Source of the DNA: Melioribacteraceae bacterium
GTDB taxonomy: Bacteria > Bacteroidota > Ignavibacteria > Ignavibacteriales > Melioribacteraceae
DNA: 64,000 nucleotides
Assembly (NCBI GenBank): GCA_027030245.1
Contig: JALVFE010000023.1
Location: 1 to 64,000, forward strand
Direction of reading: 5' to 3'
Notes under the pieces: model-generated
What the model was told of the DNA's origin: nothing
The model's input: only the letters and a program-made list of their open reading frames with translations
The model's database searches: none
Position numbers and translations under genes: made by a program
Shown here: one piece after another, positions 12,609 to 34,245 of the stretch
Position numbering within the stretch: the first letter of the stretch is position 1
Layout: the number at the start of each line of letters is the position of its first letter

Positions 12609-14177
12609 TTAGTTTAGGTTTTTTCTAAAAGTATCAAACACATGTTTCGTATAGTTTTCCATATCCTCAAAATTTCGTTTCTCTTTCGTTACGGTAACAA
12701 ATTCATCAATTGAATATGGTTTTAAATATAACTTATGTTCTGGATTTCTTTCCATAACCATAGCATATTGGTAAAATCTTTCGGTATCTTCGTGAATAAT
12801 AGGCGCTATGAAAGAGAGATATTTTTTCAATCTGTCGGCAAATTCTTCATTTGAATATAGGTGTCTGATTACGGATGTGGTTTCTTGGTTAAGTTGCTGG
12901 GTTTTGTTTCTTATTAATGTAACTTCTATGAGCCAATAAATTTCATTTGAAAATAACTCAATATCACCCTTATTTCCCGGAGCGTGAGAATAAGGTTTTC
13001 CAATATGGTCAGCTTTGTAATTTGGACGGATTGCAAATTGATCACCATATTTCAAAGCGATTAAAATGGATATGAAAAATTCTAATTTTAAAGGTTCTGG
13101 TATTTCATTAAATTCTTCGATAATTGTTCTTCTATTGCCAATTTTCTCAATGCTTTTGAGAATTTTCTCTTCGTCAATTTCGTAAATATTTATAATATTA
13201 TTTATTTGATTTCTATAATATTCTCCATCAATTTTGTCAGTTTCTCGATAACGATAAATAAGTCTTAAAAATTCATTATTTTGACTTTCTAGTTTTTTGA
13301 AATAAGCAGAAGGATTTGATTTTTCATTATCTGAAAGTCCAAATTCGATTTTTAATAAATCTACGATATAATCTAATTTATTCTCATTAATTTTGATTAA
13401 CTTTTTACCACTAAATCGAATTGTTATAAATCCCGAAATGATTAACACTCTGCGAACTACGTCTGGATAATCACGGGTTACGGTTTTGAATTTTGTAGTT
13501 ACACCATAATTTTTTTCTACAAATTGATAAACACTTTTAAAATCCGGAAATTTATTTTCATTTATTACTTCGATAAAGTTTTCTACATCCCCATTTTGAC
13601 TGAACATTGCGACAATAAATTGTTCGTAACTTAATGATTTACCTTTTTCTCGTAATTTTAGTAATACTCTTAAAATAAATTTGAAGAAATTAAAATCATT
13701 AGAAACGTTCCGATATGGATTTTTCCTATTGTATTTCATTGATTGAATAGAAAAGGCTTCCTGTTCGTCAATGTCGCCTTTTATCAACATTTTGGCAATT
13801 TCAGAAAATCTAAAAGTTTCATTATAGCGAGCGTAAACAAAACCTAATTCGGAAGGTGTACGCATATATGTCCAAAACCTTGATTGATAACCTTTTGGGA
13901 AACCACCGTCGGAATTTCTTGTGCTGTTTACCTTGACTACTTCCTCTTTTATATCGTCAAATGTTGTTTTATCGTCAATTTGAATTTTGTCACTTTTTAC
14001 AATGTTATTCAGATATAAATGGCCGACAATTTTCAATAAATTCTCATCATTGAGTAATACACCATCAAAGTCAATAAGCGCTTTAAAAATCTCTAAATAC
14101 CTATCCGGATTTCTAACGGCTGTTTCGAATGCCATTTGTTTAAATTCAGGTTTTCTTTTTGCGCCTTTTTTCGTCAT
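12609..14177 (-). CDS. AlwI-like type II restriction endonuclease
   Basis: This 522-residue protein resembles the AlwI family of type IIS restriction enzymes and related nicking enzymes. Supporting parts are the N-terminal NPDRYLEIFKALIDFDG and RFWTYMRTPSELGFVYARY segments. The C-terminal part has nuclease-like acidic residues: GNKGDIELFSNEIYWLIEV with a following TLIRNKTQQ, compatible with a PD-(D/E)xK-like site. It is the last gene of a three-gene operon after two adenine methyltransferases (3-bp gap). Two methyltransferases are what an asymmetric target needs. The recognition sequence cannot be read from the sequence. Base composition is more AT-rich than the neighbouring housekeeping genes, suggesting acquisition. 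Confidence 0.82.
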   Translation of the reverse strand: MTKKGAKRKPEFKQMAFETAVRNPDRYLEIFKALIDFDGVLLNDENLLKIVGHLYLNNIVKSDKIQIDDKTTFDDIKEEVVKVNSTRNSDGGFPKGYQSRFWTYMRTPSELGFVYARYNETFRFSEIAKMLIKGDIDEQEAFSIQSMKYNRKNPYRNVSNDFNFFKFILRVLLKLREKGKSLSYEQFIVAMFSQNGDVENFIEVINENKFPDFKSVYQFVEKNYGVTTKFKTVTRDYPDVVRRVLIISGFITIRFSGKKLIKINENKLDYIVDLLKIEFGLSDNEKSNPSAYFKKLESQNNEFLRLIYRYRETDKIDGEYYRNQINNIINIYEIDEEKILKSIEKIGNRRTIIEEFNEIPEPLKLEFFISILIALKYGDQFAIRPNYKADHIGKPYSHAPGNKGDIELFSNEIYWLIEVTLIRNKTQQLNQETTSVIRHLYSNEEFADRLKKYLSFIAPIIHEDTERFYQYAMVMERNPEHKLYLKPYSIDEFVTVTKEKRNFEDMENYTKHVFDTFRKNLN

Positions 14178-14180
14178 AAT

Positions 14181-15158
14181 TTAAGTTCTAACATTTTCAA
14201 TCTCAGAATTCTCCGTATCAAAAATACTCATCTGTTCCGAAAAATCAGGTTGATAATTAAATACCAATACTTCATTGAACGATTTAATGGAATTATCGTG
14301 ATAACTGATGTAATTGCTTTTGATATTTTGAGTATAATATTTTTCGCTCCAATTCAAAAATACAGAATTAACTTTATTTTTATAATGTGTTACATTTGAT
14401 ACTGCAAATTTGACACCTTTTCGATGCAAATTATCTAATAATTCAATTAAAATTTGTTCATTATTTTCGTTCCAAAACTTATTATATTCACTAAAAGTTA
14501 TTAAATAAGGCGGGTCAAAATAAACAAAGTCATCTTGTTGAAAATCAATGGTTCTAATAAATTCCGTAAAATCAAGATTGTAGAATTTGATGTTTCTGTT
14601 TTTTACAATCCGAAAATAATTTAATAGGGCATTTTGAACATTTTTATTAAAATCTACATTCCCGACCGGCAAATTATAAGCCCCTTCTGAATTAAAGCGC
14701 AACATTCGATTAAAACCGAAAATCAACAGCAAATACAAATCTAGCATATCTTTTTGCCGACTGTTATTGTAATGTTCTTTCAATTTTTGAAAAGGCCGTT
14801 TGTTAAATTTGGCATAATATGTTTTTTTCCACTGAATTTTCAATTCTTGTGGTACAATATCCTTTTGATAAGAATGTGAAAAGCCAAATTCTTCAATTCG
14901 ACTTTGGATCTTTTGAAAAAATTGTTCTGGATTTTTAGCTTGTTCTCTTAAAAATTTATGCAGATTTATCACATTTGTATCAATATCATTCAAAAAATAC
15001 TCTTTGGCTCGAACATTTAGAAAAACCGAACCACCTCCAGTAAAAGGTTCTATAAACCTATTGATTTTTTGGGGAAAATAGTTTTTGATTTCTGGCAAGA
15101 GTTTGTATTTGTCTCCCACATAAAATAAAGGGGAACGGTATATTTGTCGTTTATTCAT
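14181..15158 (-). CDS. Adenine-specific DNA methyltransferase, D12 class
   Basis: This 325-residue protein is a Dam-like N6-adenine methyltransferase. SAM binding is shown by RSPLFYVGDKYKLLPEI at the N-terminus and by motif I, FIEPFTGGGSVFLN (about 37-50). The catalytic motif IV is FVYFDPPYL (about 215). It modifies one strand of the restriction target and protects host DNA. It overlaps the upstream HTH-methyltransferase gene by 8 bp and is followed 3 bp later by the endonuclease, so all three are one transcript. The overlap suggests translational coupling, so that methylation precedes restriction. Confidence 0.92.
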   Translation of the reverse strand: MNKRQIYRSPLFYVGDKYKLLPEIKNYFPQKINRFIEPFTGGGSVFLNVRAKEYFLNDIDTNVINLHKFLREQAKNPEQFFQKIQSRIEEFGFSHSYQKDIVPQELKIQWKKTYYAKFNKRPFQKLKEHYNNSRQKDMLDLYLLLIFGFNRMLRFNSEGAYNLPVGNVDFNKNVQNALLNYFRIVKNRNIKFYNLDFTEFIRTIDFQQDDFVYFDPPYLITFSEYNKFWNENNEQILIELLDNLHRKGVKFAVSNVTHYKNKVNSVFLNWSEKYYTQNIKSNYISYHDNSIKSFNEVLVFNYQPDFSEQMSIFDTENSEIENVRT

Positions 15159-16482
15159 ATTTTTTAGTTAAAAATAAAAATTCCTTGTGATTTGAAAACT
15201 CCGTTTTACCAGTGTTAAAATATTTATGATTTTGTTCAAACACTTTTGTTTCGCCAACATTATTTAATATATCTAAAATTTCCTCTAATTTAATCTTGTT
15301 TTCTGACGATTTACTTTTTGATTGATAAGTATTGTTGTATGAAATTGCTAAATATTTTACTTGTAAATTTTCAACCAAATCTTTAAAAGTATCACGGGCT
15401 TTTATTGTACAGTATTTGCTCATATTTTCCGGTTTTGGTTTTAACGCAACGCCAAATAATTCAGGTTTATGCCACCTTACAAGGGTTTCGTAAACGTGAT
15501 AAAATCTGCTGTATTGTCGTGAATTGTAAGGCGGATCAATATAAGCAATATCTGCTTTAATATTTCTTGCTAAAATATTGGCATCCTCTCTGTAAATTTC
15601 TACACCTTTAAAATCTTCACATTTAATAAGCTTTAAATTAAAATTCTTTTTTTTAATAGGTTTTTTAATGTAGGCATCAAAATGTCCAACAGTATTCGCG
15701 ACTTTGTCCATTGAATATATTAAACTAGCTAACAAAATACTGTATTCTTTTTCATTATACTCGGGTTTGTTTTGTTCAATATCTTCCCGAATATATCCGA
15801 TTTTTTTCGCTATATTATAGTCAAAAAACTTACCTCCGAAATTTTTAGAAAAATAGTTGTCACTCAGTTCGTTAGCGCTAAGATTGTTGTAGTATAATAG
15901 CAATTCATTTAATTTTTCTCTATTCCAATTTTCAGACTTGAAAAATGCTTTGTAAATAATTTCATTTGAAAATAATATGTCGTTGAGAATAACTTTTTTA
16001 TAATACTTCATAGCTTGTTTGGCTACACTTGCCGTTCCCGCAAAAATGTCGATAAACGAATTGTTGTCGTTGGTTTCTTTTCTGATAATTTCCATTATCC
16101 AATCGGTCAACTTTGCTTTGTTGCCGATATATCGTCGACTTTCCAATTTAAAATATCCGTTGTCTAATTCGGGAAATAGTGTTGTATAATATTTCATTTT
16201 TTGTTCTGCAATTTTCAAGGCTTCTAACCCGAATTCTTCATTTTTAATTTCATAAACTATTTTATCACTGATTAGAATTTTAGTCAAATATTCCTTATCA
16301 CAATCGTAATAATCAGCTAATTTATTGATATGTTCTTTGGTAGGCAGGCGTTTCCCATTTTCAATTCTACTCAACAAAGTAAAATCGATATTCGTTTTTT
16401 CAGACACTTTTTTCAGAGAAATTCGTTTATTTTCTCGTATCTGTTTTAAAGTTTCACCAATGGGAAAATCCAAATCCAACAT
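15151..16482 (-). CDS. XRE-type HTH fused to adenine DNA methyltransferase
   Basis: This 443-residue protein has two parts. Residues about 8-65 are a Cro/C1-type helix-turn-helix (LKQIRENKRISLKKVSEKT followed by LLSRIENGKRLPTKEHINKL). Residues about 110-443 are a D12-class adenine methyltransferase with RRYIGNKAKLTDWI, motif I FIDIFAGTASVAKQA and motif IV IAYIDPPYNSRQY. It is the first gene of the restriction operon. Because controller proteins of many restriction systems are free XRE proteins, this fusion probably combines modification with control of its own operon. A direct repeat TTTTGACA lies at its start codon. The second methyltransferase would cover the other strand of an asymmetric site. 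Confidence 0.9.
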   Translation of the reverse strand: MLDLDFPIGETLKQIRENKRISLKKVSEKTNIDFTLLSRIENGKRLPTKEHINKLADYYDCDKEYLTKILISDKIVYEIKNEEFGLEALKIAEQKMKYYTTLFPELDNGYFKLESRRYIGNKAKLTDWIMEIIRKETNDNNSFIDIFAGTASVAKQAMKYYKKVILNDILFSNEIIYKAFFKSENWNREKLNELLLYYNNLSANELSDNYFSKNFGGKFFDYNIAKKIGYIREDIEQNKPEYNEKEYSILLASLIYSMDKVANTVGHFDAYIKKPIKKKNFNLKLIKCEDFKGVEIYREDANILARNIKADIAYIDPPYNSRQYSRFYHVYETLVRWHKPELFGVALKPKPENMSKYCTIKARDTFKDLVENLQVKYLAISYNNTYQSKSKSSENKIKLEEILDILNNVGETKVFEQNHKYFNTGKTEFSNHKEFLFLTKKYE

Positions 16483-24033: not shown

Positions 24034-25257
24034 TTACTTTAATATTAACATTTTTTTATTCATTTCAAAATTTCCGGCTTGTAACTTGTAGATATAAACT
24101 CCGCTGGGTAAACCGGCGGCATTAAACGTAACACTGTAATTCCCGGGATATTGTCTTTGATTTACAAGTGTTTTTATTTCTTTGCCGAGAACGTCGTAAA
24201 CTTTAAGGGAAACAAACCCCACCTCGGTCCTCCCCTTTGCTAAAGGGGAGGAAGCAGGAGGGGTTGGAATTGTATATTTTATTGTTGTCGAAGGATTAAA
24301 CGGATTGGGATAATTCTGCTCCAATTCCAATTTTATCTCAGGAAAAATACTGCCGGTTTTAACGGAAGTAAGGAAATCGCTCGGCGGATAATACGGTTTG
24401 CTTATAACTCCTTCATCGCTTAACAAAACCTCAATGTCCGGATTTTTCAAGATGCTGCTTATCTCAACCGAATCTCCGTTGAGCAGAACCGTATCCGCAA
24501 TTAACCGCACACCGTGAGAATAATCGGCGTAAGAGGCAATATGACCGTTATACATCGGTTGAATGGGATTGTTAATTCCCAAGTGCCATCCGTAAATTAC
24601 CACTCTTTCATAGTTTCTGTCGTTACTGTAAATTTTATTTGAAATGATAATATCTTTTTTATGTCCGGCTATTATGCTGTCGCCCGTTCTATCCAATCCC
24701 AATTGAGTGATTTGCAATTTTATGGAATCGGTATGTTGTTTAAAAACCGGAACTGTCGTCATTTTATCCGAAGGCGGAATCGGTTGGGGACGCAATTTAA
24801 TTCCGGCATTATTGTAAATGAGATCAACCATTTTTTTGGTAGGCAAAGAGCAATCGAGCCTATCGGCAAGATATTGTGCAGTAGAGGGCGTCATGGGCAT
24901 ATATAAGTAATCATCGTCGGACCCGATTGCAACGTAATCGCACAAAGTGTAGAAAACCAATTCGTAATTTTGTGAATTAACAGTTTTCTTTACCGTAATT
25001 GCTCTTAATTTTCTGGAGAACAAAGGAACGTTACCATTTAAAATTTCTTTAACTACGGCTTTTTCCCTATCCTCAATGCTTAATCCGGTAACCAAAGATG
25101 CGAAAAAAGAACCGGGGGCAGCATCGGGTTTTCTTTCCGGAATGTTCAAATATTTAAGCGAATCACTCCCTTCACCAGAATAATTCTCACCGGCGGCAAA
25201 ATTATACGGATAAGTAAATAGAAGCAGAACTGTTATAATTTTTAAACATTTAAACAT
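24034..25257 (-). CDS. Secreted protein with T9SS C-terminal sorting domain
   Basis: This 407-residue protein has an N-terminal signal peptide (hydrophobic core IITVLLLFTYPYNFAAG). It ends in a type A sorting domain of about 80 residues: NYPNPFNPSTTIKYTIP, then SLKVYDVLGKEIKTLVNQ and GVYIYKLQAGNF, closing with MNKKMLILK. Such domains direct export through the type IX system and attachment to the cell surface. The middle (about 60-290) is not a family I can name; it contains a GHIASYADYSHGVRLI segment. A 17-residue stretch inside the sorting domain is encoded by a palindromic DNA element (24215-24265). Confidence 0.82.
   Translation of the reverse strand: MFKCLKIITVLLLFTYPYNFAAGENYSGEGSDSLKYLNIPERKPDAAPGSFFASLVTGLSIEDREKAVVKEILNGNVPLFSRKLRAITVKKTVNSQNYELVFYTLCDYVAIGSDDDYLYMPMTPSTAQYLADRLDCSLPTKKMVDLIYNNAGIKLRPQPIPPSDKMTTVPVFKQHTDSIKLQITQLGLDRTGDSIIAGHKKDIIISNKIYSNDRNYERVVIYGWHLGINNPIQPMYNGHIASYADYSHGVRLIADTVLLNGDSVEISSILKNPDIEVLLSDEGVISKPYYPPSDFLTSVKTGSIFPEIKLELEQNYPNPFNPSTTIKYTIPTPPASSPLAKGRTEVGFVSLKVYDVLGKEIKTLVNQRQYPGNYSVTFNAAGLPSGVYIYKLQAGNFEMNKKMLILK
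24215..24265. repeat. Palindromic element inserted in frame in the sorting domain
   Basis: The core is a perfect hairpin with 10-bp arms, CCTCCCCTTT (24229-24238) and AAAGGGGAGG (24242-24251), around GCT. Outer arms AACCCCACCT (24215-24224) and AGGAGGGGTT (24256-24265) match with one mismatch. The whole is 51 bp, exactly 17 codons. It separates TIKYTIP from VSLKVYDVLG, which are normally close together in these sorting domains. Confidence 0.7.
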
Positions 25258-25474: not shown

Positions 25475-28400
25475 TTATTCTTCGTGGAAGCTTTTCACCG
25501 CGCTTGTCAGATCGCTGAATATATTGAACACTTTATCCATTCTGGTAATGTAAAACATTGAAGATTCAGTTTGATCATCCCAGACAAGTTTCAGGTCGCC
25601 GCCTCTCGATTTTGATTTTTTAAGCGCATTGACCAAAACTCCCAACATCGTTGAATCGACAAACTCACAGCGCGTTAAGTCTACTACGAATTTGTGGTTA
25701 CCTTGGTCAATCAAATTTTGCACATATTCTTTAAAGTCTAATGCTTTATCCATCGTTGCGCGTGCAAGGTTAACGGTAACAACACATACATCTTCCAAGC
25801 ATTTACTTTCAAAATCATTATCGTGTCCCGCTTCGTAATCTATTTTGTCTATTTCCGGAAAATCGTTTTGCGCATCGAAATTTTCTGCCGGCATAGGTTC
25901 TTCGTGAGTTTCGAAATCTTGAAAATCATTAGTTTCAACTTGTTGTTCTTCTTTTATTTCCTCAGCCGGTTGTTCTTCCAACATTTTATCAATTTCTTCA
26001 ATCGAAAGTCCTTCGTCCAATTCATTAAATTCCTCATCCATTTCAATAACGGGTTGTTCAGCCGATTCAGCCGTTTCGACTTCGGATTCTTGCTCGCGAT
26101 GGTTATCGTTCAGCAATGCTTCAAGTTCCGCTATTTTCTGAACTTGCCGCTCAATCATCTCCTCTTTTTGTCTTAACTCAGATTCATCTATGGAAATTTT
26201 TTCGCGCAAGTCTTCTATTTGCTTTTTCAAATATTCTGCATTTTCGTCTTTTTCCTTCTTAAGCTGTTCAAACTGTTCTTCCAATCCTCGAAGCTCGGCT
26301 ATTTTCTGACTTTGATTTTCAATGATTTGCTCCCGTTGGGCATCGAGCATTTCGAATTCGGTTTTTTCGAGCTTCAGTTTTGCAAGTTGTTCGCTTTGAT
26401 TTTTTATAATTTCTTTCTGCTCTTCTATTTGCCGACTAAGCTGATCTATTTTTGCGCTTAGATCTTCGTAATCGGATTTCTGTGTGGAAGAAGTTTCTAA
26501 CTCCTTAATATAATCTTCAAGACTTTTTATCAGTTCGTTTTTCGCTTCAATTTCCACATAATTTTTCTTGTTAATTTCTTGATACTCGTTCAGTTTGTTC
26601 CTAAGCGCATCCAACTGTTTTTTCTGACTTTCTATTTGCAGTCGCTTTTCATGATCTGCTTGTTCCAGTTCTTCTTTCAATTTTTCCAATTCGGAAATTC
26701 TGTTCTCAAATTCTTTTACGCGCTCGCTGTTTTCGTTATCGGAATCCGAAACATGAGCTATTTTTTCGTTCAGTTGGTTAATTTGCGATTGAAGTTCGGA
26801 GATTACGCCTTGATTATGAACCAGTTCGGCTTCTTTGGTTTTAAGTTTTTCGGTATAATCATCCAATTGTTGTTGCAGTTCGCTGCTGTTAGAAGTGTAA
26901 TGGCTGAGTTTTTCTTCAAGCTCCGCAATTTCGCTTCTTAATTTGCTTATTTCCTCTTCCCTTTCTTTAGCTTCTTCATCCCGCAAATTAAACAATTGTT
27001 CATATTCTTCCGCTTTTTCTCGGAAAGTGCTTAATTCGTTTTGCAGACTTTCAAACTTATCGCTGTATTCCGCAAGTTTCGATTCAGCAGCCACCAAGGC
27101 TTCTTCTTTTTGTTTCAGTTGCTCAATTTTTTCGGATAGTTCGCCGTTGTATTTTTCGTGTTCGTTGAGTTTGTTTTTATAATTTTCAAATTCCGAATAA
27201 AGTCCGCTTAATTCATCGCTTTGTTTGGTAATTATTTCGTTTTGTTCTTCAACTTTTGATTTGTATTCGTCAACGGCGGAATTCAATCTGCTTAACTCTT
27301 CGTTTAATTCGGCAATTGTTTTTTCGTATTGCGCTTTATCTTCTAACAAGCTCTGTTCAGCTTTTTCCAAGAGCGAAATATTTTCTTGTAGTTTTTGTAT
27401 TAATTCGTCTTTCTCCTGCGTTGAAAGACTGCAATTTTGCATCCGTTCTTCATATTCGTTCAATTTGTTTTCGATTTCTTCCGCAAATTTGACTTTCTCG
27501 TTGTAACTGACTTCCAATTCATTCTTTTTGTTTTCCAGTTCGGCATTTTGCTGTTCCAAACCGGCTTTTTCTTCTTCCAGTTTCGAAGCTAAGTTTTCAA
27601 GCTCATTTAATTTCCGTTCGATTTCGTTCACGTAGTTTTCTTTTTCTCTTAAACTGCTTTCAAGATTTTCTTTCTCTTGTTCAAGTTCGGATTTCTTATT
27701 CGATAATTCGTTTAAATTTTGTTCGTATTCGCTGCTCTTGTTTTCAAGTTCGTTTAGTCTCTGTTCCAGTTCCGAATATTCTTTTTCTTTTTCGTAGAAT
27801 TTATTTTCCCATTCGTATTGTTGTTTTTGCAATTCGGAATATTTTTGTTCCAGTTGAGATTTTTCTTGATCGAGATTAGCTTTTAAGTTTTCCAATTCGT
27901 TTAATCTTTGCTCAACTTCTTGCAAGTATCCGTCTTTTTCGTTTAATCTGTTAATCAGGTTTTCTTTTTCTTTTTCAAGTTCTTCTTTTTGCCGCTCAAT
28001 TTCCGCTTTTTGATTCGAAAGCTCGTCGAGTTTACGTTCAAATTCGTTGTTCTTACTTTCAAAGCTTTCAACTTTGTGCTGCAATTCTTCCAATCGATGA
28101 TTTTGCGCTGCAACCAAGCTTTCGTTTTCGGCGTTTTTGTTTTTAAATTCCTCGACCAGTTCGGATAGAGAAGCGATTTCTTCTTTAAGCATTTCTATCG
28201 TTTCGATATATTCTTCTTCCGCTTTCTCAAGATCCATTTCCCTTTGTCTTACTTGCGTTAGTTCATTGCTTAATTTATCCACTTGTTCTTGCTTAAACTG
28301 ATCATCCAATTCCAAAGCATGAATTCTGTTTTCGAAATCCTTAATTCTGTCATTCAAATCCTCGATGAATTTCTCTTTTTCTTCAAGACTCTTAGAAAGT

Positions 28401-31400
28401 TCCATCTTATAAATTGATAATTCATTCAGTTGCTCCTTCTGTTTTTCAATTATTTCGCTTTTTTCTACTTCCGCGTTATCCAGATTATTCAATTTATTTT
28501 CCATTTCGGAAAGACGGTTGTTTTGGTCTTCTATTATTTGGTTATCGCGTTCTATTTGAATTTCATATTCATCTATTTTGTTTTTCAGTCCGGCTATTTC
28601 GTTTTTCAACTCGTTAATTTTATCAATATATTCTTCTTCGGCTTCTTCAAATCGTTGTTTTTCGGAACGTAAAGCATTGAGTTCCGAATTCAATTGTTCG
28701 AATCTTTCGTTCTGGTCGCGCAAGCTGCTTTCGTAGTGAACAACTTTTTTATTTAATTCATCTAACACAGTGTCTTTTTCGCTAATCAAATTCGATAATT
28801 CTTTTTCCTTCTGTTCAAGTTCAGCCAACTTGCCGGTTTGACTTTCAATCAATGCATTCTTTTCTTCGTCAACATGTTTGAAGTGTTCGACTTGTGCTTG
28901 CAATTCATTAATTTGGGAATTCAAGTTAGCAACAATTTCATTCTTGCTTCTTCTTGTTTCTTCAAGTTCGTTTTCCAGAATTTTAATTTGTGCAAGTTTC
29001 TCGTTCTGTTCTCTTATAAATTTGGTTTTGGCTTCAATAACTTCGTTAAGATCGTTAATTTTCGCATTAAGATCAGATAATTCCGATTCTTTAATTGAAA
29101 GCTGTTCGTTTTTCGCTTTTATTTTATCTATAGCGGAATTCAGTTGCGATTGCAATTCGTTGATTTGAGCTTCGTATTTGCCAATTTGCTCGGTTTGAGA
29201 TTTGAGTTTATCGAGATATTCTTCTTGAGTTTTGTTCAATTTCTCAAGTTGAGCTTGAAGTTCGTTTATGAATTGTTCTTTTTCTTCGGATTGATGTTTC
29301 AGTTTCTGTGCGTTTATCGTCAACTCGGAAATCTGATCGGATAATTCGGAAATTCTTGCGTTTAATTCCACTTTTTCGTTTTCGCTCGATGTTTTGTACT
29401 CGTTTAGTTCATTGAGTTGATTTCTTAAGTTTTCGATTTCAGCGTTTTTCGCATTTTCCGATTCCGTTAATTCCGCAATTCTGTTTTCCAATCCAGTTAT
29501 TTTTGCCACTTGTTCGCCGATTAAATCATTTTTTTGTTTCTCCGAGCGTTGCAGTTCTTCCACGTAATTGTTCAATCTGTAAATTTCTTCGGCTTTACGG
29601 TTAATTTCCTCATCTTTTTCGGCAATTACTTTACCGTTGGCTTCGGCAAGTTCTTCCAAAACTTTTACTCTTTCGCTAAATCCTTTAATCGATTCTTCTT
29701 TTTCAAGAAGTTCGTTTCTTAATTTTTCATTTTCCGACTTAAATAGTGAAAGTTTTTCGCTTTGTTTTTCAATCAGATTAACTTGTTCTTCGTGTACATT
29801 TTCATAGTCCGCAACTTTTTGCATCAAATTCTTAATCTGCAGATTTAATTGCTCAAGAATTTTATCTTTTTGTTTTTCAAGTTGTTTTTGTTCGCTAATA
29901 ACGGTCTCAAGTTCGGAAATCTTATGGCTTTGAGTAATGATTATTTCATTTTTCTCTTTTTCGGATTTTTCAAGTTCTCTTTCTCTTTCCTCCAATTCTT
30001 CAACACGTCTCGCATAACTTTCGATTTCCGAAATTTTTGCGTCTATTGAAGCATTGAGATTCTTAATCGTTTGCGATTTTTCTTCGTTTTCTTCTACCAA
30101 AGCCGGAATTTTTTGAACTTCGTTTTCAAGCTCGTTTTTGAGTTCTTCCAATTCATTTAATTTGGCGGTAAGTTCTTTTAACTGTTGGTCTTTTTCGTTA
30201 ATGAAACCAATTTTTTCTTTCAGTTCGCCTTCTAATTTTTCAATTGTGCTTTGTTTTTCGGATATTCTTCCCTTTAATTCTTCAATGCGTCCGTTAAGTT
30301 CGTCTTTTTCCTTATATAAGCTATTAAGCTCTTCGGTTTTACCGGTTAATTCGTTTTCGGCGTGGTTAAGTCTTTCTTTATATTTTTCTATTTCCGATTT
30401 CAAAAATTCAATTTCGTTCTGTAATTCGTCAATTTTTTGAAGCCCGCTTTCCTTATCCAGTTCCAGAACACTTATTTTCTCATCAAGGGCGAAAATTGAT
30501 TCTTCTTTTTCCTTTAATTTTTTCTCCAATTCTTTAATGAGAAACTCACTTTCTATAATATCGTTTTCTAAGTTTTTGTTTTTATTTTGAAGTTCTTTAA
30601 TTAATTCGTTCTTTTCGCTCAATACCTTTTCGTGTTCTTCTTTAACCAATTCAAGACCTGAAATTTGACCTTCGAGCTCTGTTATTTTGTTTTCCAGTTG
30701 TTCTTTATCTTGTTTAAGCGATTGTTCCGATTCGTTTAATTTTGCAATTAAATTGTTTTGTTCGGAGATCAATTCCGATTTTTGCGAAATTTGATTTTCG
30801 TAAGTTTTGTTTAATTCTTCCAATTCGTTAAATCGCTTTAAGTACTCTTCGATTTTATATTCCAAACCGTTTATTTCATTTTTTAATTGCTCCCGTTCTT
30901 CTTCCAATTCTAAAATTTTAACGCTCTGCTCGCCGATTAACGAATTTCTGTGTTTATCTACATGTGAGAATTTTTGTTCGAGTTTTTTATATGCTTCCAA
31001 TCTTTCCCTGTATTCTTCGGCTTTTCTCTGCAGCTCTTCTTTATCATTTCTAAATTGACTAAGCTCTTCTTCAATTTTTTGCTTTTCTTCTTTTATCAGA
31101 TCGATAATGTGTTCTTTTTCGGAAAGTTTATTTTCATAATTTTCCGTTAATTCCTTTAACTCTGCATTAAGTCCGGCAATTATTTCATCTTTGGATTTAA
31201 TTTCGTTCTCGAATTTTTCCCGGACGGCAGAATCCGATGAAAGCTGCTCGGTTATTTCACGTATTTTCTCACTTTGCGAATCGATTACTTGTTCAAGTTT
31301 TTCGTTTTTATCTTTTAAATAAGATATCTCAGCCGAATAGTTTTCAATTTCTTTATTTTTTTGTGAAATTACATTTTCAAAATTTTCCGAATCGGAATTC

Positions 31401-32644
31401 AAACGACCGTTTAATTCAACGATATTTTGTTTTAACCCTTCTATTTCTTCATTTTTTGCCGCAATTTCCTCATCAAATTTCTGATAAGCTAAAGAAAGTT
31501 TGTTGTTCAGTTCATTTAATTCTGCGTTTTGATTTTCAAGTTTGCTATTTAATTCTTCATTCCGGTTTTTAAGATTAGCAATTTCATCTTCGTATCCTTG
31601 AAGCAATTCATCTTTTTTTCTGTCGCTTTCTTTCAAATCTTCAAATTCAATTAATAATTTTTGATAATCGGCTTCGCTTTCTTCTTTTGACATAAGACTT
31701 CGATTATGAAGTTCATCGATTTGATTTTTATAGTTCTCCAAATCCCTACGCAGATTTTCTATTTCCTGGTCTTTTTCTTCCAATCTCGAATGAAAACTTT
31801 CTTGTTCTTTTTGAAATTCGTTTAATTTTTTCTCGCGTTCATCTATTTCTTGTTGAGCTTTTTCAAGTTTTTCAGCTAATTCGTTTCTTTCGTTTTGCAG
31901 GTTTCTTAATGCTTCTTCGTTTCTGTTTAATCTTTCTTGAAACTCTTCCGATACCGCCGCGCCGTTCAATTTGAACGCTTCCAATTCTTTCTTCAGTTGA
32001 AATAATTCTTGATCCTTTGCTTCGAGGGATTTTAAGTAGTGGTCTTTTTCCGACTGGATTTGATTAAGTTCGTTTTTCAGAGATTCGATTTCTTCCAGAT
32101 ACGGTTGAACTTTTTCTTCCGTTTCGTTTTTATTTTGTCTAACATCCAACTCGTATATCGGGGTTTCACGTTTGTTCTGTTTTTTAATTTTTTCTTGGCG
32201 TGCCCTTTCAACCAATTGTTCAAGTTGCTTTTTGGTGTATTTGTCCAAGTCGGTTAGTGATTTTTTAATATTGCTGAAAATTACATTGTAATGTTCCAAC
32301 AAAGTATCCAACTCGGCTTCGGAAAGAATTGCCAAATAAGAATCCCTGAGCGCAACGGCAGTAGATTTTCGTGGTGATTTAAGGAAGAACTCGTCTTGAC
32401 CGAAAAACTCATTTTCGCCTAAAATTATTGAATTTGTCTTTCCGAATGCTTTTCGTTTAAGTAAATTAACCTCACCGTTCAAGATCAGATAAATAGAATC
32501 AGCCGGATCTCCTTCGCGAAATATTACTTCACCTTCTCTGAAAGTCTTCAAGTTAATTTTTAAATCTTTCAGATTATACTCGGAAAGATCCGCATTTCTG
32601 AATAATTGATTACTTTTAAGCGCTAAGTTCAATTGATTTTGCAT
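25475..32644 (-). CDS. Giant cNMP-binding-like / coiled-coil / STAS protein
   Basis: This 2389-residue protein has three parts. Residues about 1-125 are a Crp-type cyclic nucleotide-binding-like fold (EGEVIFREGDPADSIYLILN, then FFGQDEFFLKSPRKSTAVA). Residues about 150-2190 are an almost unbroken coiled coil rich in E, K, L, N and Q, with recurring KLNELEN heptads. After an acidic linker, residues about 2280-2389 are a STAS domain with DLTRCEFVDSTMLGVLV; the serine in DST is at the position phosphorylated in anti-anti-sigma factors. No signal peptide or membrane segment is seen. If extended, the coil would span about 0.3 micrometre. A second protein at 58469-60616 shares the N-terminal domain. 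Role unknown; a signalling scaffold is the best inference. Confidence 0.9.
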   Translation of the reverse strand: MQNQLNLALKSNQLFRNADLSEYNLKDLKINLKTFREGEVIFREGDPADSIYLILNGEVNLLKRKAFGKTNSIILGENEFFGQDEFFLKSPRKSTAVALRDSYLAILSEAELDTLLEHYNVIFSNIKKSLTDLDKYTKKQLEQLVERARQEKIKKQNKRETPIYELDVRQNKNETEEKVQPYLEEIESLKNELNQIQSEKDHYLKSLEAKDQELFQLKKELEAFKLNGAAVSEEFQERLNRNEEALRNLQNERNELAEKLEKAQQEIDEREKKLNEFQKEQESFHSRLEEKDQEIENLRRDLENYKNQIDELHNRSLMSKEESEADYQKLLIEFEDLKESDRKKDELLQGYEDEIANLKNRNEELNSKLENQNAELNELNNKLSLAYQKFDEEIAAKNEEIEGLKQNIVELNGRLNSDSENFENVISQKNKEIENYSAEISYLKDKNEKLEQVIDSQSEKIREITEQLSSDSAVREKFENEIKSKDEIIAGLNAELKELTENYENKLSEKEHIIDLIKEEKQKIEEELSQFRNDKEELQRKAEEYRERLEAYKKLEQKFSHVDKHRNSLIGEQSVKILELEEEREQLKNEINGLEYKIEEYLKRFNELEELNKTYENQISQKSELISEQNNLIAKLNESEQSLKQDKEQLENKITELEGQISGLELVKEEHEKVLSEKNELIKELQNKNKNLENDIIESEFLIKELEKKLKEKEESIFALDEKISVLELDKESGLQKIDELQNEIEFLKSEIEKYKERLNHAENELTGKTEELNSLYKEKDELNGRIEELKGRISEKQSTIEKLEGELKEKIGFINEKDQQLKELTAKLNELEELKNELENEVQKIPALVEENEEKSQTIKNLNASIDAKISEIESYARRVEELEERERELEKSEKEKNEIIITQSHKISELETVISEQKQLEKQKDKILEQLNLQIKNLMQKVADYENVHEEQVNLIEKQSEKLSLFKSENEKLRNELLEKEESIKGFSERVKVLEELAEANGKVIAEKDEEINRKAEEIYRLNNYVEELQRSEKQKNDLIGEQVAKITGLENRIAELTESENAKNAEIENLRNQLNELNEYKTSSENEKVELNARISELSDQISELTINAQKLKHQSEEKEQFINELQAQLEKLNKTQEEYLDKLKSQTEQIGKYEAQINELQSQLNSAIDKIKAKNEQLSIKESELSDLNAKINDLNEVIEAKTKFIREQNEKLAQIKILENELEETRRSKNEIVANLNSQINELQAQVEHFKHVDEEKNALIESQTGKLAELEQKEKELSNLISEKDTVLDELNKKVVHYESSLRDQNERFEQLNSELNALRSEKQRFEEAEEEYIDKINELKNEIAGLKNKIDEYEIQIERDNQIIEDQNNRLSEMENKLNNLDNAEVEKSEIIEKQKEQLNELSIYKMELSKSLEEKEKFIEDLNDRIKDFENRIHALELDDQFKQEQVDKLSNELTQVRQREMDLEKAEEEYIETIEMLKEEIASLSELVEEFKNKNAENESLVAAQNHRLEELQHKVESFESKNNEFERKLDELSNQKAEIERQKEELEKEKENLINRLNEKDGYLQEVEQRLNELENLKANLDQEKSQLEQKYSELQKQQYEWENKFYEKEKEYSELEQRLNELENKSSEYEQNLNELSNKKSELEQEKENLESSLREKENYVNEIERKLNELENLASKLEEEKAGLEQQNAELENKKNELEVSYNEKVKFAEEIENKLNEYEERMQNCSLSTQEKDELIQKLQENISLLEKAEQSLLEDKAQYEKTIAELNEELSRLNSAVDEYKSKVEEQNEIITKQSDELSGLYSEFENYKNKLNEHEKYNGELSEKIEQLKQKEEALVAAESKLAEYSDKFESLQNELSTFREKAEEYEQLFNLRDEEAKEREEEISKLRSEIAELEEKLSHYTSNSSELQQQLDDYTEKLKTKEAELVHNQGVISELQSQINQLNEKIAHVSDSDNENSERVKEFENRISELEKLKEELEQADHEKRLQIESQKKQLDALRNKLNEYQEINKKNYVEIEAKNELIKSLEDYIKELETSSTQKSDYEDLSAKIDQLSRQIEEQKEIIKNQSEQLAKLKLEKTEFEMLDAQREQIIENQSQKIAELRGLEEQFEQLKKEKDENAEYLKKQIEDLREKISIDESELRQKEEMIERQVQKIAELEALLNDNHREQESEVETAESAEQPVIEMDEEFNELDEGLSIEEIDKMLEEQPAEEIKEEQQVETNDFQDFETHEEPMPAENFDAQNDFPEIDKIDYEAGHDNDFESKCLEDVCVVTVNLARATMDKALDFKEYVQNLIDQGNHKFVVDLTRCEFVDSTMLGVLVNALKKSKSRGGDLKLVWDDQTESSMFYITRMDKVFNIFSDLTSAVKSFHEE
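27467..27907 (-). repeat. Three 49-residue repeats inside the giant coiled coil
   Basis: Three consecutive blocks of exactly 147 bp (27907-27761, 27760-27614, 27613-27467; residues about 1580-1726) each encode seven heptads starting with RLNELEN or KLNELEN. Later heptads also correspond (for example SELEQ, NEKEK/REKEN). The DNA has diverged while the heptad register is kept. Confidence 0.7.
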
Positions 32645-32913: not shown

Positions 32914-34245
32914 ATGAATTTCCAAATTGAGATGAGTAACAAAATTATGCATTTTAATCGCCTGCCCTTGAATGTAAAAAAATATCTCGCGCGCAACGGG
33001 GAATTTTTTAGAAATCCGGATAGAACAAAAAGTAAATTATACGATTTGGTTGTGGTTATACCGGCTTTAGCGGAATTAGAAAATTCAAAAAAGTTGTTGA
33101 AATCATTAGAAAATAACCCAAAATCTAAAAATACGCTGGTTTTAATTGTGGTAAACAACAGGGCGGAATCAACTAACAAGGTAAAAACCGAAAATAAAAA
33201 ATTAATTGAGTTTTTAGGTAGCCGGATTAGAAAAACACGTAAATTCGATTTGAATTTCATCGATGCAAGTTCACCCGGGAAAGAATTGCCTGAAAAATTT
33301 GCCGGAGTGGGCTTAGCCAGGAAAATCGGAATGGATTACGCACTTACCGTTTTCGATTATTCGTCAAATTCGAAAAAAATTATCGCTTGTCTCGATGCCG
33401 ATTGCCTGGTCGAGGAAAATTATTTCCGGACAATTACGGATAATTATACCAAACTTAATTTATCAGCAGCAGTTATAGATTTCGAACATCAAACACCAAA
33501 TGATTCAAAACAGCATTTGGCAATTGTTAATTACGAAATTTTTCTAAGGTATTATGTATTGGGATTGAAGTATGCAAATTCGCTTTATGCTTTTCATACA
33601 ATCGGCTCTACTATAACCGTTGATTACGAAAACTACATAAAAATCGGCGGGATGAACAAGAAAAAAGCGGGCGAAGACTTCTATTTTATGGAAAAATTGG
33701 CAAAAGTGACGCATATTGGCAGACTCAAAACCACCAAAGTTTATCCTTCGGCAAGAAAATCATGGCGGGTTCCCTTCGGAACGGGACAAAGAATAAGCAA
33801 ATTTTTAACAAATTCCCGTGACGAATATTTTTTATACAATCCCGAATCTTTTGAAATTTTGAAAAAATGGTTGGAAGTTTTTAATTCCACGGAAGTTTCA
33901 GATGCTAAGGAATATTTAAAAGAAGCAGAAAAAATCAACCCCCAATTAAAAAATTTTCTGAAATCCGCCGGCTTTGAAAATGATTGGCAAAAAATCTTAA
34001 AAAACTCAGGTAACTTACGCCAAATCATGCATCAAAAAAAGCTGTGGTTCGACGGTTTCCGTACTTTAAAATTGATTCATTTTTTAAGGGATAACGGTTA
34101 TCCGGATATCGAAATGTTTGATGCGGTTGACATTTTACTATCCAAATTAGGAACGGAAACAGGAATTAACAGAACTTCCGGCATACCGCCTTTGGAAACC
34201 CAACTGGAATATTTGCAAAAACTAAAAGAAAAAGAATTAGATTAA
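32914..34245 (+). CDS. Glycosyltransferase, family 2-like
   Basis: This 443-residue protein has a GT-A-type N-terminal half. Its first strand is DLVVVIPALAE (about 45), the metal-binding DxD is in IIACLDADCLVEENYF (about 160), and GGMNKKKAGEDFYFMEKLAK (about 250) holds the acceptor-site ED motif. No membrane segment is present, so it is cytosolic or peripheral. The acceptor and sugar are unknown. The C-terminal 150 residues are helical and not recognised. Alternative starts exist at 32935 (MSNKIM) and further in; none has a clear ribosome binding site. It stands as a single gene, divergent from the giant coiled-coil gene. Confidence 0.78.
   Translation: MNFQIEMSNKIMHFNRLPLNVKKYLARNGEFFRNPDRTKSKLYDLVVVIPALAELENSKKLLKSLENNPKSKNTLVLIVVNNRAESTNKVKTENKKLIEFLGSRIRKTRKFDLNFIDASSPGKELPEKFAGVGLARKIGMDYALTVFDYSSNSKKIIACLDADCLVEENYFRTITDNYTKLNLSAAVIDFEHQTPNDSKQHLAIVNYEIFLRYYVLGLKYANSLYAFHTIGSTITVDYENYIKIGGMNKKKAGEDFYFMEKLAKVTHIGRLKTTKVYPSARKSWRVPFGTGQRISKFLTNSRDEYFLYNPESFEILKKWLEVFNSTEVSDAKEYLKEAEKINPQLKNFLKSAGFENDWQKILKNSGNLRQIMHQKKLWFDGFRTLKLIHFLRDNGYPDIEMFDAVDILLSKLGTETGINRTSGIPPLETQLEYLQKLKEKELD

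Follow-up and report, generated by a model that had tools for sequence, protein, structure and literature searches.

A 2389-residue Melioribacteraceae protein linking a Crp-type head to a STAS domain through a very long predicted coiled coil

The gene, its domain ends and its surroundings

The window analysed here, a stretch of 64,000 nucleotides from a Melioribacteraceae bacterium (contig JALVFE010000023.1), contains on its reverse strand a complete ORF for a protein of 2389 residues (hereafter denoted the giant; Table 1), which starts with ATG, has no internal stop codons, and has a computed mass of 282 kDa and a pI of 4.65. An earlier note on this DNA had described the product as a Crp-type head and a STAS domain at opposite ends of a very long coil; this three-part layout is borne out by an HMM domain search, in which both ends lie above their curated Pfam cut-offs: cNMP_binding (PF00027) with 63.7 bits (cut-off 27.5; E = 1.5e-17) and STAS (PF01740) with 37.1 bits (cut-off 22.6; E = 2.8e-9). 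The locus is one gene without breaks, and the same layout occurs as intact single ORFs in other assemblies (G001, G002 and G007; the window's genome is denoted G000), which rules out an assembly artefact or several genes. No HTH or other DNA-binding domain was found in the giant by Pfam scan.

Table 1. Features of the locus, with positions in the window.
Feature	Position	Strand	Basis
Giant, complete ORF, 2389 aa (cNMP head, coil, acidic linker, STAS tail)	25475..32644	-	ORF and Pfam
Head, residues 1-140; PF00027 at residues 33-119 (32288-32548); CNB fold	32225..32644	-	Pfam, fold model
Coiled coil, residues about 150-2190 (~2040 residues)	26075..32197	-	heptad statistics
Longest stretch without register break, residues 832-1846, 145 heptads	27107..30151	-	register tracking
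Acidic proline-containing linker from coil to STAS, residues 2191-2281	25802..26074	-	sequence, fading heptad signal
STAS tail, residues 2282-2389; PF01740 at residues 2301-2382; RsbV/SpoIIAA-like fold	25478..25801	-	Pfam, fold model
Ser2331 codon, Asp-Ser switch position	25652..25654	-	STAS alignment
Same head on another output: cNMP-GAF-HATPase kinase, 715 aa	58469..60616	-	Pfam, head alignment
Divergent upstream neighbour, 443 aa, glycosyltransferase-like by eye	32914..34245	+	by eye

The AlphaFold model of the tail (pLDDT 84.8, pTM 0.80, 4 aligned rows) resembles TM1081, SpoIIAA and RsbV in a structure search, the top match being 3f43 (TM 0.78/0.80); the narrower NCBIfam models ant_ant_sig and spore_II_AA score below their cut-offs on it (43.7 against 53.45 bits and 26.4 against 114.75 bits, respectively). 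The Asp-Ser pair (D49-S50 in the alignment; the Ser is Ser2331 of the giant) is invariant in all 12 aligned STAS domains, which comprise nine fused tails and the three STAS domains of G010. Its presence agrees with the earlier suggestion that this end is of the phospho-switch type, in which Ser2331 would be phosphorylated.

The head model (pLDDT 74.9, pTM 0.63, 7 rows), the helical ends of which are less certain, resembles GlxR and other Crp proteins. The top PDB sequence match to head residues 31-114 is PCR12 of Toxoplasma (9ya0, 2736 aa, E 4.6e-20), which is also a very long CNB protein; the match probably reflects likeness of domain type only. The pocket Glu of cNMP domains binds ribose, and Epac1 is a CNB protein that responds to cAMP. 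In the giant, Gln83 (32396-32398, reverse strand) occupies the position of the canonical Glu and the pocket Arg is kept as Arg92 (32369-32371, reverse strand). Across 35 aligned heads (those of 15 complete head-linker-STAS proteins, 19 others, and a giant fragment of G138, which has Gln) the Arg is kept in every case; the Glu is replaced in all 15 complete members (by Gln in five, Tyr in nine and His in one). Its loss was rejected as a mark of head-linker-STAS proteins only, as it is kept in just 8 of the 19 other heads. The nucleotide sensing supposed in the earlier note is consequently weakened: the kept Arg and one class III cyclase domain in the window's genome stand in its favour, and the Glu replacement stands against it, although Epac1 likewise carries Gln at this position in the available part of one report (PMC4300089).

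Heads of this kind are also joined to other outputs. The head of the kinase in the window (Table 1) is 43-45% identical to that of the giant, keeps the pocket Glu and leads into a long acidic linker; no HisKA match was found in this protein at E 0.001. The same head occurs on kinases of 1668 (L090), 1174 (L093) and 1035 aa (L096), with variable linkers that reach ~1150 residues in L090. A 1412-aa protein (L091:540-4778) has a cNMP head and no further Pfam domain.

The upstream neighbour of the giant has no Pfam match, and a gene alike by eye lies at the same position in three congeners. The downstream neighbour (24034-25257, reverse strand) ends in a sorting tail of the Por secretion-system type (PF18962), a pointer to type IX secretion. 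Further away, a low-GC island (12609-16482, reverse strand; GC 0.28-0.30 in 2-kb windows) carries genes for two D12-class adenine methyltransferases, of which one has an N-terminal HTH, and for an AlwI-type restriction endonuclease (PF09491); it resembles a type II restriction-modification system. Neither an Rfam scan nor a tRNA scan of the window gave a match, and tandem or direct DNA repeats are few within the gene of the giant.

The coiled coil

The hydrophobic pattern of the giant, taken over 2059 residues, has a spectral power of 131.8 at a period of 3.50 (white noise would give ~1); the corresponding values at period 3.5 are 140.4 for G001, 163.6 for G002 and 58.1 for G007. A purpose-written register-tracking script found 13 register breaks over 2039 residues of the coil, with a longest run of 1017 residues. 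In 30 residue shuffles there were 70 breaks on average, and no run was longer than 165 residues. Tracking over the whole protein gave an unbroken run of 1015 residues (Table 1). LIVMFYA residues fill 72% of a/d positions and 14-15% of other positions, and there is a single proline between residues 182 and 2197. The heptad signal fades to a power of 1-3 in windows from residue 2157 on. Coils tolerate register shifts of 3 or 4 residues, which account for 11 of the 13 breaks in G000, 7 of 7 in G001, 5 of 8 in G002 and 8 of 24 in G007. At the usual coiled-coil rise of ~0.1485 nm per residue, residues 150-2180, as a predicted extended coil, come to ~0.30 µm, so that the length of about 0.3 micrometre given in the earlier note holds.

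The longest unbroken run is 1057 residues in G001, 714 in G002, 245 in G007 and 240 in G016, compared with at most 178 among the shuffles of seven proteins (30 residue shuffles each). Among the short members, the coil was examined in five of eleven (G008, G014, G016, G018 and G020). The run length in G014 and G020 is no better than in their own shuffles, G008 and G018 have modest peaks near 3.5 (14.0 at 3.55 and 9.8 at 3.44, respectively), and the linker of G016 has hendecad-type periods (2.19, 3.68, 5.5 and 8.24) with 33-residue self-similarity (z 16.8). A 1205-aa head-linker-STAS protein (L055:5561-9178) has a linker with such a 33-residue hendecad-type repeat in place of heptads. The description 'very long unbroken heptad coil' thus fits the giants of the window's genus; G007 is less regular, and the short members are weaker. 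In our judgement, the unbroken heptad run is unusually long for a bacterial signalling protein.

Pfam matches to the coil are of coil-type models only and all lie below cut-off, the best being Rod_CreS (53.9 bits, cut-off 100), with SMC, Rad50 and others likewise; such matches are generic to coils. Membership of the SMC/Rad50 group was rejected, as the ends are CNB and STAS domains rather than ABC ATPase heads and the matches are confined to the coil; membership of the crescentin family was rejected on the Rod_CreS score.

Distribution of the layout and the partner-switching module

Complete head-linker-STAS ORFs, of 692-2504 aa, were found in at least 15 of 164 genomes of the order, presumably Ignavibacteriales; four encode giants (G000, G001, G002 and G007) and eleven encode shorter members (G008, G014, G016, G018, G020, G118, G119, G120, G122, G143 and G145). 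Fragments lie at contig ends in G003 (of the same genus, where the contig ends inside the head), G121 and G138, the last with one piece of a head and one of a STAS domain, both at contig ends and treated as separate; in G111, head and tail are in different frames. A giant or a piece of one is present in L072 and L077 (Melioribacteraceae MAGs), L073 (bacterium BMS3Abin04) and L075 (Ignavibacteriae MAG DOLZORAL124), and a head without STAS in L074 (Bacteroidetes MAG) and L076 (a MAG titled Melioribacter roseus). In an even phylum-wide sample of 395 genomes, the tail matches listed for genomes beyond the order are all in open frames of 202 aa or less, and the head query found no relative in viral contigs. 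The earlier note knew of no described bacterial system with this layout; in the portions of the open-access literature searched, which covered the layout itself, STAS domains combined with coiled coils, and partner switching in Ignavibacteria, we likewise found no description of it. The short genes of G008, G018 and G014 (L056, L057 and L058) share an aldehyde-dehydrogenase-like neighbour on the same side, as judged by eye, and so have a conserved place of their own.

A conserved gene cluster (L104, L105, L107 and L109) consists of a small stand-alone STAS protein related to the tail of the giant (STAS-A), a U32 peptidase, a PAS-type histidine kinase, a sigma-54 activator-type response regulator (RR), a second STAS protein (STAS-B) and a receiver-PP2C protein (RR-PP2C). 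The domains of this module were confirmed; the RR-PP2C has receiver and SpoIIE domains only, no kinase domain being found. Among the matches listed, the RR has one clear orthologue (at least 71% identity) in 14 of 16 genomes tested and none in G138 and G008, the assemblies of which are 89% and 81% complete, respectively. The kinase, RR and RR-PP2C are present in all five giant genomes examined (G000, G001, G002, G003 and G007). We compared 17 clusters, which are those at hand and not a random draw: STAS-B stands between RR and RR-PP2C in none of the five giant genomes versus 11 of the 12 other clusters (the exception is G010), and the kinase of the giant genomes is short where complete (386-400 aa versus 522-762 aa in the 12 others; that of G001 is cut by a contig end).

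Stand-alone STAS-A and the fused layout follow an exclusion pattern in the family. Among the matches listed, STAS-A (at least 148 bits) is absent from all 17 family genomes in which a head-linker-STAS gene was found (complete in 14, and known from fragments in G003, G138 and G121) and present in 36 of the 62 others (79 family genomes in all; Fisher 9e-6); counted by genus, it occurs in 0 of 8 versus 12 of 27 (p = 0.03); these tests ignore descent, and the 148-bit limit was chosen after seeing the score gap. Directly below that limit in the matches listed come three giants, with 144, 133 and 130 bits, and in G000, G001, G002, G007 and G138 no STAS domain of the same genome outscores the giant among those matches; the giants of G001 and G002 (114 and 112 bits on the STAS-A profile) score below some stand-alone STAS domains of other genomes. 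No STAS-A adjoins U32 in the three short-type genomes with the U32 flank in view (G018, G020 and G119).

In G007 the giant lies directly upstream of the histidine kinase, RR and RR-PP2C; in the window's genome it lies on contig C23 and the module on C13. The latter genome encodes eight SpoIIE-type phosphatases, and its contig C16 bears a further cluster in which PP2Cs accompany a small STAS protein and an RsbW-like kinase, so that pairing of the giant with the C13 phosphatase is one choice among several. No RsbW-type (PF13581) match, and hence no linked kinase of this type, was found on C13 or C23; the clusters of other genomes were inspected for one by eye. Candidate kinases for Ser2331 are three RsbW-like proteins of 142-145 aa in the window's genome, in which a fourth such match, in a 268-aa frame, barely exceeds the cut-off. 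The other candidate would be a relative of the Hanks-type kinase that stands, by look, near STAS-A in L104, L105, L107 and L109; Pfam confirmation of that kinase (188.5 bits) is confined to L105.

In a tree of 58 STAS domains (106 columns only, with six rows omitted as too divergent), the short members form one clade (100/99) and the giants another (88/83; 89/88 in another tree), and STAS-A and the giants are separate clades of modest support. Fused versus stand-alone status needs at least three changes on this tree, and a single origin of all fused STAS domains was rejected (p-AU 0.026); giants and shorts group without support (31/79), and it is G016 and G118 that carry the extra changes. Resolution in the head tree is too poor to settle the question of origin. 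In G010, a 487-aa STAS protein with a long proline-rich extension and without head (L060:6338-7801) stands in tandem with two stand-alone STAS-A copies, an arrangement that is possibly intermediate towards fusion. Replacement of STAS-A by the fused STAS is inferred from these patterns, not traced.

Possible roles of the giant and comparison with known systems

The architecture is real, conserved and unusual; at the level of sequence it would be a variant of partner switching, and a role for its length is a proposal. With moderate confidence, we suggest that the giant is the STAS switch protein of a two-component/PP2C partner-switching module, fused to a very long coil that runs from a Crp-type head. 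The STAS tail would have taken over the role of STAS-A (in the giants also that of STAS-B) as the substrate of RR-PP2C, which would take phosphate off Ser2331 while a putative kinase adds it, and the phospho-state of this residue would decide which partner the STAS end grips. Crp pairs through its C-helix; two giant chains may run in parallel, with the heads forming a pair at one end and the STAS domains, carried on flexible acidic linkers, a second pair at the other. By binding either a protein or a ligand, for which cAMP in a pocket of the Epac1 kind is one possibility, the head might anchor or gate the rod, which at ~0.3 µm could serve as a tether or reach device, holding the switch away from the site of the head or letting it search around that site.

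Only tentatively do we extend this to a spatial partner switch, in which a diffusible STAS has been replaced, more than once, by a tethered STAS. Its state would be read out, at a fixed or a searched site, as far as 0.3 µm from a Crp-like head that is itself anchored, and the length of the coil could change freely by whole heptads. The usual picture of a partner switch is one of small proteins that diffuse; if the proposal is true, the giant would be a signalling tether at the scale of a cell diameter, with a layout comparable to that of EEA1. The apparent swap of a small STAS for a linker-borne one, with head and module conserved, suggests that position within the cell matters for this class of signalling.

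It appears unlikely that the role is structural, with the coil polymerising in the manner of crescentin and other proteins rich in coiled coil, and with a cytoskeletal element tuned through the head and STAS domains as handles for assembly or docking. Rod_CreS is the best Pfam model of the coil, though below its cut-off and of a generic kind, and a 28-residue repeat length is familiar from myosin-like rods. Self-similarity by autocorrelation at a lag of 28 residues has z = 12.8 in G000, 7.1 in G001 and 11.3 in G002; however, lags of 56 and 49 are nearly as strong in G000 (z 11.2 and 10.5), where a position-specific test of the 28-residue unit gives z 0.5, albeit 4.7 in G001 and 4.3 in G002. 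Linker length and coil type also vary widely, which would be surprising in a protein that builds a lattice.

It is similarly doubtful that the coil is an idle spacer, its length drifting with little effect by duplication of coil units in an otherwise ordinary head-STAS switch. The coil is indeed the least conserved part (between G000 and G002 the head is 76-80% identical, the tail 63%, and coil windows 20-51%), its length is very variable, its internal similarity falls at multiples of 7 and 28, and the linkers of the kinase relatives vary too. Against this, register is unbroken for more than 1000 residues in G000 and G001, and length changes mostly keep the heptad: between collinear coil blocks the offset changes by 49, 231 and 294 (G000-G002), 49, 252 and 140 (G001-G002), and 49 and 21 (G000-G001), so that 8 of 11 changes are multiples of 7 (the exceptions are 8, 4 and 146). 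As the blocks were chosen by eye from a table and coils favour in-register matches anyway, growth of the coil mostly in heptad steps is supportive only; together with the long unbroken runs, it argues for an unbroken coil under selection in the giants.

We consider it improbable that the giant is a long-range allosteric relay, in which a ligand of the head alters coil register or flexibility and thereby STAS phosphorylation at the far end. Crp-type heads transmit ligand state to the C-helix, which here continues into the coil, and the genome has its cyclase domain. By analogy, the endosomal tether EEA1 is a dimeric coil of ~200 nm that may become more flexible when Rab5 binds one of its ends, according to the available part of one report (PMC8491906). 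The relay reading is set against the pocket Glu replaced throughout the complete members, the acidic linker between coil and STAS, and the 2000 residues over which a register shift would have to travel. A molecular ruler setting a fixed distance, one of the roles raised in the earlier note, would suit an extended coil at cell-diameter scale, but is contradicted and very improbable, as giants of 2214 (G001), 2389 (G000) and 2504 aa (G002) occur in one genus (a 13% spread), G007 has 1769 aa, the short members have 692-1205 aa, and G016 has a different, hendecad-type coil.

The giant can be set beside several known systems. Like crescentin and bacterial coiled-coil-rich proteins, the giant has a long heptad coil; unlike crescentin, it scores below the Rod_CreS cut-off and bears two globular signalling domains. 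With EEA1, as far as that source describes it, it shares a long coil with a different domain at each end, an analogy of shape only with a protein predicted from its gene; EEA1 is eukaryotic and its domains are unrelated. The CNB fold and pocket Arg are common to the giant, Crp/FNR-type proteins, Epac1 and the PKA regulatory subunits, and Gln for Glu is shared, in the part of the Epac1 report available, with Epac1; in contrast to all of these, the giant has no HTH, kinase-inhibitor or GEF part, and its head leads into a coil. RsbR and other stressosome sensors have an N-terminal sensor and a C-terminal STAS domain, as does the giant with its sensor-type head, but are not known to have a long coil. 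The STAS fold and Asp-Ser motif are those of the anti-sigma factor antagonists RsbV and SpoIIAA, which are single-domain proteins of 100-120 aa, whereas the STAS of the giant is the tip of a 2389-aa coil protein. HsbR and SypE are response regulators with a PP2C output, each paired with a STAS-type protein. HsbR-HsbA of Pseudomonas and SypE-SypA of Vibrio are, in the available parts of two reports (PMC6482189, PMC10120452), receiver-PP2C and STAS partner switches, and the present module similarly places an RR with PP2C output alongside a STAS-type protein; compared with those systems as so described, no kinase domain was found in the RR-PP2C here, and the cluster adds a sigma-54-type RR and a PAS kinase.
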